Assembly (NCBI RefSeq): GCF_001896955.1
Contig: NZ_MKRN01000188.1
Location: 1 to 36,410, forward strand
Direction of reading: 5' to 3'
Source: Nitrobacter sp. 62-13
GTDB taxonomy: Bacteria > Pseudomonadota > Alphaproteobacteria > Rhizobiales > Xanthobacteraceae
Length of the DNA stretch: 36,410 bases
The position numbers and the translations under genes were made by a program. Shown here in pieces: positions 1,459-26,921 of the stretch (position 1 is its first letter; every line of letters starts with the position of its first letter). The notes under the pieces are model-generated. The model had not been told where the DNA came from and searched no databases. It worked only from the letters and a program-made list of their open reading frames with translations.

Positions 1459-1604
1459 GTCATTCCGGCCTCCGCAGAAGCCATGCTCCGGATCCGGGAA
1501 TGCGAGGGTCCGTTTCAACGGCGTTGAACCAGACTCGTCGCTTGCCTTTTTGTTTGAGCATGATCCTTTCCGAAAGCCGGTTTCCACTTTTTCGGGATCA
1601 TGCC
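1459..1604. repeat. Two adjacent palindromic intergenic repeats (CATTCCGG...CCGGGAATG type, and GCATGATCCTTTCCGAAAG...CTTTTTCGGGATCATGC type)
   Basis: Inverted arms visible in sequence: cattccgg/ccgggaatg at 1459-1503; gcatgatcc.../...ggatcatgc with ccgaaa/tttcgg at about 1556-1604. Confidence 0.7.
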
Positions 1605-4865: not shown

Positions 4866-7451
4866 ATGGGCAGACCGTCAATGGACAAGTCGGGCTTGGT
4901 GGCATGGCTCGCTTTGGCGTTGACGTGGGCGGCGCCAGGGGCAGCACAGGATGCCAGTTGGCTCGCTGCTCCGCCCGGCGGCGATTTTAATGACGCGGCG
5001 AACTGGACCCCGGCCACCGTGCCGACCGGCACCGCATCGTTCGGCATGTCGACCGGCACGACCATTACATTCTCGAGTGACACCACGCTGGGCGGGTGGA
5101 CCTTCAACGCCGGCGCTTCGAATTATACCTTCGCCAGCGACCATGCTCTGATGTTCACCGGCGGGGGAATCGTCCTCAACGACGGCAGCGCCGACATCAC
5201 CAACAATAATTTGCTGCAATTCTCCCACGCCAGCACAGCCGGCAGCGCCAGCATCACTGACACCAATAACGGTGTCCTGCAGTTCATCGACACCAGCACG
5301 GCCGGCAACGCCGTCATCACCAATCATGGTAGCCTGGAGTTCTATGACGCCACCAGGGCGGGCAGCGCCAACATCACCAACACCGGGACCCTGTACTTCT
5401 TCGGTGGCAGCACGGCCGACAACGCTATCATCACAAACAACGGTTCTCTGCAATTCGCCACCCGCGGCACGGCCGGCAACGCCAGTATCACCAATGGGGC
5501 TGGTGCGTCGACCGACTTCTCGGGGTCGAGCGGACCGCTCAACGACGGACAGCTTTCCGCCGGCTCGATCGCAGGCAACGGGCAATTCTACCTCGGTGCC
5601 AATCAACTGACGGTTGGCGGCAACAATCTGAGCACCACCGTCAACGGCGTCATCAGCGACTGCGGACCATCAGGCTCGAGTTGTAGTTCAACTGGCGCCA
5701 CCGGCGGCACGCTGATCAAGACCGGGACGGGAACGCTGACGCTCACCAGCGCCAACCTCTATACCGGAGCCACCACGGTTGATGCCGGCACGCTCAACGT
5801 CACCGGCTCGCTGGCGGCGTCAAGCGCGGTCAGCGTCAACACCGGCGCGGTGCTTGCCGGCACCGGCAGCGTCGGCAGCGTCGGCATCAACAGCGGCGGC
5901 ACGCTGGCGCCGGGCGACGGCACGCCGGGCTCCTCAATGAGTCTCGGCAGCCTGACCCTGCAAGCGGGCGCGGAGTATGTGGTGATGCTCAACCCCGCCA
6001 CCGCGTCTTCCGCCCATGTCACGGGTGCAGCGACGCTCAGTGGGGCCACCGTCAGGGCGATCTATGCCAACGGCAGTTACATCTCGAAGCAATATACCAT
6101 CCTCACCGCGGGCAACATCAGCGGCACGTTCGGCTCGCTGGCCAACACCAACCTTCCCGCGAACTTCACGACCGGCCTGAGTTATGACCCGACCCATGCC
6201 TACCTCAACCTGACGCTGAACTTTGTTCCGCAGCTTGCGAGTGCCTACCTCAGCACGAATCAGCGCAACGTCGCCACTACGCTGATCAATTCCTTCAACA
6301 CCACCGGCGGCATTCCGCTGGTGTTCGGTGCGCTGACGCCGGCGGGCCTGACGTATATCTCGGGTGAAGCGGCGACCGGCTCGCTACAGTCCACCTTCAA
6401 TGCGATGGACCTGTTCCTGGGGATCCTGACCGATCCCTTCATCGCCGGCCGCGGCAATGGTGCAACCGCAAACGGTGCGGCGCCGGCCCATCCCGAAGGG
6501 CGCTACGCTGTCAGCGCCTATGCGCCGGGAGACACGCCGCGCTACGAGCGTGACGCCTATGCCGCGATCTATCGTAAGGCGCCTGCAACGGCCGATCCCC
6601 TCACCCCACGCTGGAGCGTGTGGGCCACGGGCTATGGCGGCTCGCAGACCACCGACGGCAATACGTCGCTCGGGTCCAGTACCGCGACTTCCAGTGTCGC
6701 CGGCGTCGCGGTCGGCGCCGACTACCGCATTTCGCCGTTCACAACCGCGAGCTTCGCGCTGGCGGGCGGCGGAACCACCTTCAATGTCGTCAACGGAAGC
6801 GGACGGTCCGACCTGTTCCAGACGGGCACCTTCCTTCGACACACTGTCGGCTCCGCCTATCTCTCCGGTGCGCTCGCTTACGGCTGGCAGGACGTCACCA
6901 CCAACCGCCTCGTGACGATCAGCAGCGCAGACCGGTTGCAGGCGCGTTTCAGCGCCGATGCATGGTCGGGTCGTGTCGAAAACGGCTATCGCGCGGTCAG
7001 TTCCGCAACGGGCGGCGTCGGTATCACGCCTTATACGGCCGGCCAGTTCATCACCTTCGAACTGCCGGCTTATGCCGAAAGTGTTCTGTCTGGCGCCAAC
7101 ACCTTTGCGCTGGCCAACCATGCCAAAAGCGTGACGGATATCCGCAGCGAAGTCGGTATCCGCACCGACAAATCCTGCGCGGTGCAGGACGCGATCCTGA
7201 CGCTGCGCGGACGTCTTGCATGGGCGCACGATTTCAATCCGGACCGTACCGTCGTGGCGACGTTCCAGACCTTGCCCGGCGCCAGCTTCGTCGTAAACGG
7301 CGCGGCCATGGCCTCCGACGCCGCGCTTATCACCGGCGGGGCCGAGATGAAGTGGATCGACGACTGGTCGGTGGCCGCCACCTTCGAGAGCGAGTTCTCC
7401 AACGTCACGCGATCCTACGCCGGCAAGGGCACGATCCGCCACGTGTGGTGA
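4866..7451 (+). CDS. Type V (classical) autotransporter with repeat-containing beta-helical passenger and C-terminal beta-barrel
   Basis: 861 aa; N-terminal signal (LVAWLALALTWAAPGAAQ), passenger-associated repeat GGTLIKTGTGTLTLTSANLYTGATTVDAGTLNVTGSL, C-terminal barrel (WSVWATGYGGSQTTDGN...) ending GTIRHVW* with terminal aromatic residue. Confidence 0.92.
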   Translation: MGRPSMDKSGLVAWLALALTWAAPGAAQDASWLAAPPGGDFNDAANWTPATVPTGTASFGMSTGTTITFSSDTTLGGWTFNAGASNYTFASDHALMFTGGGIVLNDGSADITNNNLLQFSHASTAGSASITDTNNGVLQFIDTSTAGNAVITNHGSLEFYDATRAGSANITNTGTLYFFGGSTADNAIITNNGSLQFATRGTAGNASITNGAGASTDFSGSSGPLNDGQLSAGSIAGNGQFYLGANQLTVGGNNLSTTVNGVISDCGPSGSSCSSTGATGGTLIKTGTGTLTLTSANLYTGATTVDAGTLNVTGSLAASSAVSVNTGAVLAGTGSVGSVGINSGGTLAPGDGTPGSSMSLGSLTLQAGAEYVVMLNPATASSAHVTGAATLSGATVRAIYANGSYISKQYTILTAGNISGTFGSLANTNLPANFTTGLSYDPTHAYLNLTLNFVPQLASAYLSTNQRNVATTLINSFNTTGGIPLVFGALTPAGLTYISGEAATGSLQSTFNAMDLFLGILTDPFIAGRGNGATANGAAPAHPEGRYAVSAYAPGDTPRYERDAYAAIYRKAPATADPLTPRWSVWATGYGGSQTTDGNTSLGSSTATSSVAGVAVGADYRISPFTTASFALAGGGTTFNVVNGSGRSDLFQTGTFLRHTVGSAYLSGALAYGWQDVTTNRLVTISSADRLQARFSADAWSGRVENGYRAVSSATGGVGITPYTAGQFITFELPAYAESVLSGANTFALANHAKSVTDIRSEVGIRTDKSCAVQDAILTLRGRLAWAHDFNPDRTVVATFQTLPGASFVVNGAAMASDAALITGGAEMKWIDDWSVAATFESEFSNVTRSYAGKGTIRHVW
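5186..5495 (+). repeat. In-frame 19-aa (57-nt) degenerate tandem repeats in autotransporter passenger
   Basis: SADITNNNLLQFSHASTAG / SASITDTNNGVLQFIDTSTAG / NAVITNHGSLEFYDATRAG / SANITNTGTLYFFGGSTAD / NAIITNNGSLQFATRGTAG / NASITN. Confidence 0.85.
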
Positions 7452-17600: not shown

Positions 17601-17685
17601 GTCATGCCCGCGCTTGTCGCGGGCATCCACGTCTTGGTAGTAGAGACAGGAAGACGTGGATGGCCGGAACAAGTCCGGCCATGAC
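17601..17685. repeat. Palindromic intergenic repeat, GTCATGCCCGCGCTTGTCGCGGGCATCCACGTCTT...AAGACGTGGATGGCCGGAACAAGTCCGGCCATGAC
   Basis: Two internal hairpins plus outer inverted GTCATG.../...CATGAC and CCACGTCTT/AAGACGTGG arms. Confidence 0.8.
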
Positions 17686-23476: not shown

Positions 23477-23557
23477 ATTGATCGAGCACGATCTTGTCCG
23501 AAAACCGGCTCCCGCCCGGGATCAGGTCCGGGGCAGGCTCCTTGGGATCATGCTCTA
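23477..23557. repeat. Palindromic intergenic repeat (GAGCACGATCTTGTCCGAAAACCGG...GGGATCATGCTC)
   Basis: gagcacgatc / gggatcatgctc inverted arms with CCGAAAACCGG core; same family as the element at about 1556-1604. Confidence 0.75.
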
Positions 23558-24004: not shown

Positions 24005-25726
24005 TCATGCGGATCGAGCCGCTGCAGCGGAAGCGAGCATCCGCTCCAGCGTCTCCAGCCGGTCGGCTTCGCGCGGCGGCTTGTCCCAGCGCAGGCGGCT
24101 GATGCGGGGAAAGCGCATCGCCACGCCCGACCTGTGCCGTGCCGACCGCTGCAATCCCTCGAAGGCGACTTCCAGCACCAGCCCCCGATCCGGCTCATGC
24201 ACGACGTGGCGCACCGGGCCGAAGCTCTCGGTGGTGTTGCGACGGACGAAGCGATCGATCCGCAGCAGTTCCTCGTCGGTGAAGCCGAAATAGGCCTTGC
24301 CGACCGGCACCAGTTGCTCGTTTCCATCGGCCTCGGTCCAGACTCCGAAGGTATAGTCGGAGTAATAGGAGGAGCGCTTGCCGTGGCCGCGCTGCGCGTA
24401 CATCAACACCGCGTCGATGACATGCGGATCGCGTTTCCATTTCCACCACAGGCCCTTGGGACGTCCCGGCAGATACGGCGCGTCACGGCGCTTCAGCATG
24501 ATGCCTTCGACCGCGTCGGCGTCGGTTCCCGCCGCGGCCGGATCGGCGCGGGCTGCCGCGAGTTCGCCCCATGTGGCGAAGGGCACCTGCGGCGACAGGT
24601 CGATACGCGGATCGTCAAGCGCTGCGATGAAATCAACCAGCCGCCGCCGCCGGTCGTCAAACGGCAACTCGCGCAGATCGTTGTCGCCGTCGTCGAGCAG
24701 ATCGTAGGCGCGCAGGTGGATGGGAAATTCCTTCATCAGCCTGGGCGTCACGGTCTTGCGGTTCAGCCTCTGCTGCAGGACGTTGAACGATTGCACCCGC
24801 CCCTCGCGCACCACCAGCAACTCGCCGTCGATGGCGAACGCTTGATGCCGAAAAGTGCGAAGCGGTTTTCGGGAATCATCAAGTGTCACTTCTGAAGATT
24901 CCTGCAACCTCAGCGAGGGCAGCAAATCCGGAAAGCCGCTCGTGATGTCCTCGCCGGTGCGCGAATAAAGCCGGCTCGCGTCGTTGCCATGCTCGTCGCA
25001 GCCGCCGACGGCCTGCACGCGGATGCCGTCCCATTTCCACTCGGCCGTGAAATCGGATGCATCCAGCCGCGCAAAGTCGGCGTCCTCGATCGCGTGCGCC
25101 AGCATCACCGGCCGGAACGGCGCGGGGATGCGGTTGACCGGTTTTTCGGCGCGGCCTTCGAGCCATGCGAACAGATCGAGATATGGCGGCGCGAGACCTG
25201 GCCAGATCAGTTCGACATCGTGCGTATCTTTATCGCCGAGCGCCGCCGCGGCGGTCTTGGCGAGCCGCGCGGACACGCCGATCCGCATCGCGCCGGTGAC
25301 GAGTTTCAAGAGCGCCCAGCGACCGATTTCGTCCAACTCGTCGAGCCAGCGGGCGAGCTGCGCCGGCAGTTCGGCCTTGCCGAGGGTGCGCAGCGTGGTG
25401 ACGACATCGGTGAGCGTGGGCGGCGGCGGTTTGCCGTCGTGCTCGCGCATCAGCGCCGAGGGCCACATCAGCGCCACCGTTTCGGAGAGATCGCCGACGT
25501 AATCGTAGGACAAGGCGAACAACACCGGGTCGGCGCGCGCGGCGATCAGACCACGGACAAGAGCGGGCTTGGCGTGCTTGAACGACAATGCGCCGGTCAG
25601 CGCAGCCAGCGCGTAGCCGCGATCCGGATCCGGCGTCTCGCGAAAATATGCGGTGATCAGCCGCAGTTTGTTATTGCGGCCGGGTTCGTAGGCAAGACGG
25701 TCGAGCAGTTCGGCGAAACGGTTCAT
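24005..25726 (-). CDS. ATP-dependent DNA ligase (cisplatin damage response / ligase-associated type)
   Basis: MNRFAELLDRLAYEPGRNNKLRLITAYFRETPDPDRGYALAALTG..., EWKWDGIRVQAVGG (motif I), RLYSRTGEDI, IDGELLVVREGRVQSFNVLQQRLNRK, EGIMLKRRDAPYLPGRPKGLWWKWKRDP. Confidence 0.96.
   Translation of the reverse strand: MNRFAELLDRLAYEPGRNNKLRLITAYFRETPDPDRGYALAALTGALSFKHAKPALVRGLIAARADPVLFALSYDYVGDLSETVALMWPSALMREHDGKPPPPTLTDVVTTLRTLGKAELPAQLARWLDELDEIGRWALLKLVTGAMRIGVSARLAKTAAAALGDKDTHDVELIWPGLAPPYLDLFAWLEGRAEKPVNRIPAPFRPVMLAHAIEDADFARLDASDFTAEWKWDGIRVQAVGGCDEHGNDASRLYSRTGEDITSGFPDLLPSLRLQESSEVTLDDSRKPLRTFRHQAFAIDGELLVVREGRVQSFNVLQQRLNRKTVTPRLMKEFPIHLRAYDLLDDGDNDLRELPFDDRRRRLVDFIAALDDPRIDLSPQVPFATWGELAAARADPAAAGTDADAVEGIMLKRRDAPYLPGRPKGLWWKWKRDPHVIDAVLMYAQRGHGKRSSYYSDYTFGVWTEADGNEQLVPVGKAYFGFTDEELLRIDRFVRRNTTESFGPVRHVVHEPDRGLVLEVAFEGLQRSARHRSGVAMRFPRISRLRWDKPPREADRLETLERMLASAAAARSA
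24841..24883. repeat. Palindromic repeat embedded in frame within the DNA ligase CDS
   Basis: CTTGATGcCGAAAAgtgcgaagcggTTTTCGggaatCATCAAG: 7-bp outer and 6-bp inner inverted arms; core resembles the CCGAAAACCG-type intergenic palindromes at 1556-1604 and 23477-23557. Confidence 0.75.
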
Positions 25727-26769
25727 GAGCCGCCCTCCTCGCCCAACGCCGCCGCATCATCCTCCTCGCTGTCCTCGTCGCCGTAGCCGACCAGCGCGAG
25801 CGGGCGCGCGACGAGCCCTTGCGTCGTGCACCAATGCACCAGCGCGTCTTCCTGGCCGTGCGTCACCCAGATTTCGCCTGCCCCTGTCGCCGCGATGGTG
25901 CGGGTCAGGCCGTCCCAATCGGCATGATCGGAAATAACCAGCGGCAGTTCGACGCCGCGCTGCCGCGCCCGCGCGCGAAGGCGCATCCAGCCGGACGCAA
26001 ACGCCGTCACCGGATCGGGAAAGCGCCGCGTCCACAGATCCGCGATCGCCGTAGGCGGCGCCAGCGTGACGGTGCCCGCAAGATCGGCCTTCTTCATTCC
26101 CCTGGCCGGCCGCAATTCGCCAAGCGCGATACCGCGGCTTTGATAATACTGCGTGACCTTCGCCATCGCGCCATGCAGATAGATCGGCGTGCCGTAGCCG
26201 GCTTCGCGGATCAGCGCGATCACGCGTTGCGCCTTGCCGAGCGAATAAGCGCCGACGAGATGCGCGCGATCGGGAAACAGCGCGACCGAAGCCAGCAGCT
26301 TGTCCACTTCACACGCCGCATCGCCATGACGGAACACCGGCAGCCCGAACGTCGCCTCGGTGATGAAGACATCGCACGGCACCACCTCGAACGGGGTGCA
26401 GGTCGGATCGCGGACATCCTTGTAGTCGCCCGAGGCGACGATCCGGACACCGCCATGCGTGACCGCGACCTGCGCCGAGCCGAGCACGTGGCCTGCGGGA
26501 TGGAATTTGATCGAGACCCCGCCGAGCCGAATTTCTTCGCCGTAGGAAATCGCCTGCGTGGCGCCGGCGAAACCATCGCCGTAGCGCAGCCGCATGATAT
26601 CGAGCGTTTCCTGCGTCGCCAGCACCGCGCCGTGACCGGGTCGGGCATGATCGGAATGGCCATGGGTGATGACCGCGCGGTCCACAGGGCGCACCGGATC
26701 GATATGGAAGCCGCCGGGCTTGCAACACAATCCGGCGGCGACGGGCATCAGGATGTCTTGCGGACGCAT
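25723..26769 (-). CDS. Ligase-associated DNA exonuclease (metallo-beta-lactamase / mRNA 3'-end processing factor-like)
   Basis: MRPQDILMPVAAGLCCKPGGFHIDPVRPVDRAVITHGHSDHARPGHGAVLATQETLDIM...HPAGHVLGSAQVAV...SDHADWDGL; overlaps ligase start by 4 nt. Confidence 0.94.
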   Translation of the reverse strand: MRPQDILMPVAAGLCCKPGGFHIDPVRPVDRAVITHGHSDHARPGHGAVLATQETLDIMRLRYGDGFAGATQAISYGEEIRLGGVSIKFHPAGHVLGSAQVAVTHGGVRIVASGDYKDVRDPTCTPFEVVPCDVFITEATFGLPVFRHGDAACEVDKLLASVALFPDRAHLVGAYSLGKAQRVIALIREAGYGTPIYLHGAMAKVTQYYQSRGIALGELRPARGMKKADLAGTVTLAPPTAIADLWTRRFPDPVTAFASGWMRLRARARQRGVELPLVISDHADWDGLTRTIAATGAGEIWVTHGQEDALVHWCTTQGLVARPLALVGYGDEDSEEDDAAALGEEGGS

Positions 26770-26835
26770 GGCGGGCATATAAGCAGCCGCACGTGTCGTT
26801 CGAGTCCGGGCGCTTCGACGATAGCCCGCGCAACG

Positions 26836-26862
26836 AAAAAGCCCCGGCCTTGGCCGGGGCTT
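26836..26862 (-). terminator. Rho-independent terminator downstream of the BAX inhibitor-1 gene
   Basis: Minus strand: AAGCCCCGGCC-AA-GGCCGGGGCTTTTT, GC-rich hairpin followed by T run. Confidence 0.85.
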
Positions 26863-26921
26863 CACGTATCAGATCGTCTAGCTATTCACCAAAACCGGAC
26901 GACCGCTTTTCGAGGCTGTTC

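Follow-up and report, generated by a model that had tools for sequence, protein, structure and literature searches.

A palindromic repeat in frame in a DNA ligase loop, gained repeatedly at one codon in Nitrobacter and its relatives

Intragenic palindromic repeats are usually viewed as rare accidents that are fixed once by descent. A DNA ligase gene of Nitrobacter sp. 62-13 raises the question of what such a repeat is doing inside a conserved coding sequence, whether it is translated, and how often a repeat has arrived at the same place. The window, the whole stretch of 36,410 nucleotides that was analyzed (contig NZ_MKRN01000188.1), has the ligase gene next to that of an exonuclease.

24005-25726, minus strand: cisplatin damage response ATP-dependent DNA ligase gene, 573 aa plus stop (ORF list; TIGR04120, E 2.5e-238)
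25723-26865, minus strand: ligase-associated exonuclease, overlapping the ligase start, an operon context (ORF list; TIGR04122, E 1.3e-142)

The ligase ORF (24005-25726, minus strand) also matches three Pfam DNA_ligase_A domains in profile searches, and the TIGR04122 exonuclease is the usual partner of the TIGR04120 ligase. In alignments of orthologs, the ligase has 23 residues (275-297) where almost all relatives have two. A typical ortholog joins the helix after motif Ia to the motif III strand (DGELL) by a short turn, as in LPGAIDGELL; here, the corresponding stretch, which follows motif Ia (SRTGED), reads LRLQESSEVTLDDSRKPLRTFRHQAFAIDGELL. BLAST alignments of many orthologs break precisely at residues 275 and 298 of the query.

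24836-24904, minus strand: inserted segment QESSEVTLDDSRKPLRTFRHQAF, residues 275-297, replacing a two-residue turn, net +21 aa (ortholog alignments; BLAST split)
24838-24886, no strand assigned: palindromic repeat core, with arms ACGCTTGATG (24838-24847) and CATCAAGTGT (24877-24886) around CCGAAAACCGCTTCGCACTTTTCGG (minus strand, 24848-24872) (inverted-repeat search; pattern, 0 mismatches)
24887-24904, minus strand: 5' extension of the insert (QESSEV), common to all carrier ligases (alignment; intergenic copies)

On the plus strand, the palindrome within this minus-strand ORF is CTTGATGCCGAAAAGTGCGAAGCGGTTTTCGGGAATCATCAAG at 24841-24883. A preliminary description, made from the sequence, had assumed a short linker between these motifs in related ligases and estimated an insertion of ∼20 codons. 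Alignments bear out both points, with a two-residue turn in most orthologs and a net gain of 21 residues.

This core is one of a family of repeats in the genome. With up to three mismatches allowed, the core pattern CCGAAAACCGNNNNNCACTTTTCGG has 56 strand-hits in 3.54 Mb of genome, falling at ∼51 distinct places, versus 2 for a reversed control, and the ligase copy matches it with no mismatch over the 20 fixed bases of the 25-bp core. Copies in the genome were counted by pattern search and ∼30 were examined with their flanks. These are mostly intergenic, with arms GAGCATGATC/GATCATGCTC, and the layout in this genome is GAGCATGATC...CCGAAAACCGNNNNNCACTTTTCGG...GATCATGCTC with a variable upstream part. 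None of the ∼30 is clearly inside a conserved domain; ORFs that cover them looked spurious or like upstream extensions (e.g., before RNase PH). The arms of the ligase copy, CGCTTGATG/CATCAAGCG, pair with each other, although their sequence is not the usual GAGCATGAT/ATCATGCTC. In other genera, a few of the intergenic copies (L262, L271-L273, and L277) have the same GATTCT upstream module as the ligase insert, and at an equal spacing. In Rfam, no family matched the repeat and the only matches were two tRNAs. Two intergenic copies lie in the window.

1556-1604, plus strand: intergenic copy of the same repeat family, a good copy (sequence; pattern match at 1570-1594 with 3 mismatches)
23477-23557, plus strand: diverged, expanded intergenic copy just downstream of the ligase gene (sequence)

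The preliminary description had named both as relatives of the ligase palindrome; the first stands as such, and the second does too, but in diverged and expanded form. Its main claim, that an intergenic-type palindromic repeat lies in frame inside the ligase gene, is confirmed: most orthologs lack the segment and the core matches ∼50 places in the genome. The segment is an in-frame insertion, in a tolerant surface loop, of a palindromic repeat that is usually intergenic in this bacterial family.

Other repeats were seen along the way. The window has an inverted repeat at 17601-17685 with 35-nt arms that are 83% complementary and 15 nt apart, and five tandem copies at 5198-5513 (unit spacing of 57-63 nt) that probably encode a repeat protein. 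In loci L274 and L276 (G059 and G016, of the g17 genomes), the same palindromic repeat is in frame at the N-terminus of a VWA-domain-like protein, before a signal-peptide-like stretch.

An ordinary protein loop of variable length could resemble a palindrome in its DNA by chance. Loop length does vary in the distant ligases L025, L111, and L136, and the fold energy of the ligase copy in the window is within that of synonymous-codon shuffles (138/300). GC-rich synonymous shuffles fold as well as this copy and hairpin energy alone was dropped as proof; the evidence for it is its sequence identity to the repeat, not the strength of its hairpin. That mismatch-free identity to a genome-wide repeat argues against chance, as does the fold energy of Bradyrhizobium ligase copies, which is beyond the synonymous-codon control (0/300). 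Moreover, 6 of 19 pairs changed on both sides across ligases, compared to 2.9 in shuffles and 0-2 when the pairing was slid. We regard an ordinary loop as extremely improbable.

The segment could also be present in the gene and absent from the protein, if ribosomes bypass the hairpin. Ribosome bypass is known from T4 gene 60 and mitochondrial byp elements, and the insert is a hairpin inside an otherwise conserved gene. However, all carrier alleles are in frame and without stops, their lengths differ by whole codons only, and three Nitrobacter copies (G120, G103, and G061) have lost the hairpin through decay of the palindrome while the frame is still open. Bypass is therefore very improbable. 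Across Nitrobacter, pN/pS is 0.41 in the insert versus 0.13 in the rest of the gene. The preliminary description had anticipated an odd loop in a repair enzyme. An AlphaFold2 model (57 orthologs, mean pLDDT of 77.8) leaves residues 275-293 disordered (pLDDT below 50) between a helix and the strand of catalytic motif III. Because the frame is open, the segment is predicted to be disordered, and constraint is relaxed, the ligase very probably carries the translated insert as a floppy extension of 21 residues without a required role, and the loop that holds it would be exposed, translated, and tolerated.

Inserts at this codon are found well beyond the window. The survey covered 399 genomes of the family, 272 genomes of a Bradyrhizobium group (g24), 16 of a Rhodopseudomonas-like group (g28), and 9 of Nitrobacter; the scan of named genomes covered the best 80 loci, and genus names of coded groups were inferred from named ligase records placed beside them in the tree. 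Six of 13 carrier ligases are from Nitrobacter and the rest are from a Rhodopseudomonas-like species, a second genus (g40), and two lineages of Bradyrhizobium. Full inserts occur in Nitrobacter G000, G151, G019, G120, G103, and G061, in g40 (G113 and also L106), in G208 of g28, and in Bradyrhizobium, where one lineage comprises G357, G402, G543, and G544 and the other consists of G536, which shares its ligase with MAG L107. The ortholog of N. winogradskyi NBRC 14297 has the same insert type in decayed form; two other Nitrobacter ligases (G136 and G165) have no insert. Several of the genomes are MAGs or drafts, and G208, G543, and G544 are single-contig genomes of 100% completeness. In all carriers, the insert is at the identical codon and in frame, and sister species lack it. 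The same codon carries an insert in several genera, which is the main point and one beyond the reach of the preliminary description.

Shorter alleles also occur at the codon, namely LQGSSSFA in G304, G221, G488, and L072, LQGSSKSFA in G478, LQDPFA in L088, and SQNPSQYKPFA in G215. They look like scars of partial deletions. L072 was considered as a true empty site of L107 and its length fits (54 nt), but it has flank bases seen only in insert alleles and reads better as a partial deletion.

Ligases of the family vary in other ways. At the same loop, L025/L161 (G037) have an unrelated 16-residue insert, GEGAARLGDAHPPAPPVDAV, outside this repeat family. A second in-frame palindrome site is present in the linker near residue 90, after ALMWP (L128, L119, L139, L106, L096, L100, L113, and L132-L134), where large inverted repeats are read as PSPQPSPTRGEGA...VPSPLVGEGQGEG and RNA fold energies are -118 to -180 in the four that were folded; L081 looks like a deletion remnant at this linker. 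No ligase of this type was found in Nitrobacter G084 (∼100% complete), and other Nitrobacter genomes have one.

The distribution of carriers bears on whether the insert was gained once, in the common ancestor of the group, and then inherited vertically and lost in most species. All inserts occupy one and the same codon with identical boundaries, all have the 5' extension in common, and the scar alleles show that partial loss happens. Nonetheless, noncarriers keep the loop length of outgroups and mostly their LPGA-type turn, so a single ancient insertion needs precise restoration many times. In a ligase tree built with insert and linker columns removed, the carriers need at least five changes, and a single clade is rejected both for all carriers (AU p 1.3e-5) and for carriers other than Nitrobacter (AU p 3e-4). 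Whole-gene horizontal transfer of the ligase was also rejected, as trees place carriers beside noncarriers of their own groups. The flanks argue in the same direction, and in the two cleanest cases they match the clade to which the host itself belongs. In G357, the sequence on either side of the insert (25 nt on the left, 21 nt on the right) is identical to that of the noncarrier sisters B. embrapense and B. macuxiense, and 71 nt in G357 take the place of CCGGC in these sisters. Block identity and discriminating sites near the junctions in G357 or G208 revealed no site that points to another carrier as the donor. In G113 and L107, local flanks do not clearly favor the sampled sisters over other carriers, and longer recombination tracts may be involved. 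Finally, the palindrome is more alike than the gene across some genera. A single ancient insertion is, in our judgment, improbable. Gene tree and flanks together show that the same codon gained inserts several times: in Nitrobacter, in the g40 genus, in the Rhodopseudomonas-like species, and in two Bradyrhizobium lineages.

Where did these inserts come from? Each could be an ordinary intergenic repeat of its host genome, inserted independently into a hotspot loop. The repeat family is abundant in most genomes compared, the loop is tolerant enough to hold the unrelated 16-residue insert of L025, and arms differ between lineages in a paired manner. There are also free copies that differ from the Bradyrhizobium-type insert by 2-3 mismatches. 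The inserts nevertheless resemble each other more than they resemble the other copies in their own genomes: for every ligase insert, the score against the nearest insert of another ligase (52-64) exceeds all scores against 97 further copies (maximum of 40), which include copies fetched from each insert's own genome. The G208 genome has only one other copy, a weak one. Among 399 genomes, the type-N arms of Nitrobacter and G113, CGCTTGATG/CATCAAGCG, are found within two mismatches in ligases only, and the single nonligase match has three mismatches and the usual ATGATG arm. Identity of the palindrome is 94-96% between G113 and Nitrobacter G000/G151/G019 and 98% between L107 and G357, versus ∼81% and 84%, respectively, for the gene. 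The truncated 5' extension is common to all inserts. Independent insertion from each host's repeats is therefore unlikely, and the data support derivation of the inserts from ligase-specific element lineages and not from the repeats that each genome now contains. The inserts are short, so their phylogenetic signal is weak and relationships among them are weakly resolved; their closeness could come in part from one favored repeat subtype. Paired changes in the arms, in turn, can mean either that the hairpin was corrected or that different copies arrived separately.

A RAYT-type mobilizer, the transposase associated with GTAG/CGTC REPs, was also searched for. PF01797 (Y1/RAYT transposase) had no match in G000 (∼90% complete), G019, G103, G113, or G208, and matches over the cut-off were found in G357, G402, G536, and G304. 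G113, G208, and those Nitrobacter genomes that were tested therefore lack a mobilizer of this type, which counts against the explanation favored below.

Taken as a whole, the most probable explanation is an in-frame repeat insert in the ligase loop with several gains, ligase-specific lineages, and later decay, and we hold it with good though not full confidence. An intergenic-type palindromic repeat entered the tolerant surface loop in frame. The likeliest route for its further movement is from ligase gene to ligase gene, either through recombination over very short tracts or through insertion into a site that the element prefers. After insertion, the hairpin may drift away while the frame stays open, or partial deletion may leave short scars; both patterns are present among the alleles, and the direction of change is the presumed one. 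We can only tentatively entertain a stronger version, rather unlikely at present, in which the loop is a dedicated landing site. Element lineages specific to ligases would move between the ligases of different genera at one codon in a homing-like manner, with paired changes that keep the hairpin while it is mobile, and would then decay into new protein sequence.

Similar elements are known. Rickettsia palindromic elements, in another alphaproteobacterium, are palindromic repeats of similar size that lie in frame in protein genes and add tens of residues (described in part in PMC3733652). The ligase insert has an RPE-like trait, in that it lies in frame in a conserved gene whose intact orthologs lack it, and the analogy drawn in the preliminary description holds as far as this mode is concerned. 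Likened by description, the element here differs from RPEs in being mainly intergenic, and where it is coding, it is found repeatedly at a single codon of a single gene in several genera. Di Nocera et al. (2013) reported that GTAG/CGTC REPs are mostly intergenic and that some are intragenic, often in DNA repair genes including a DNA ligase of O. terrae, and that recB of two Xanthomonas species has different REPs at nearly the same position (PMC3733652). GTAG/CGTC REPs have a tetranucleotide tag at the foot of the stem; inspection of the aligned insert ends revealed neither GTAG nor CGTC there, and the ligase insert does not belong to that class. Compared to intragenic REPs of that class, the inserts here were gained across five lineages and form ligase-specific lineages. 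Br-REP1 and Br-REP2 are palindromic repeats that occur widely in Bradyrhizobium and Rhodopseudomonas, and a larger form extends to Nitrobacter, but the printed Bradyrhizobiaceae consensuses (CCGGAATCTCGAGATTCCGG and that of Br-REP2) differ from the element in the ligase (PMC5082802). Rhizobium-specific intergenic mosaic elements (RIME) are mosaic palindromic intergenic repeats of rhizobia, which the copies here resemble by description in also having variable upstream modules.

Palindromic repeats inside repair genes, including one DNA ligase, were thus already published (PMC3733652). What is new is that five lineages have gained an insert at the same codon and that the insert types are specific to ligases. 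At this single codon, related species have alleles that are filled, empty, scarred, or decayed. This series of alleles allows the movement of repeats to be tested, as recombination between genes versus targeted insertion, and also opens to study how ordinary protein sequence arises from a hairpin.
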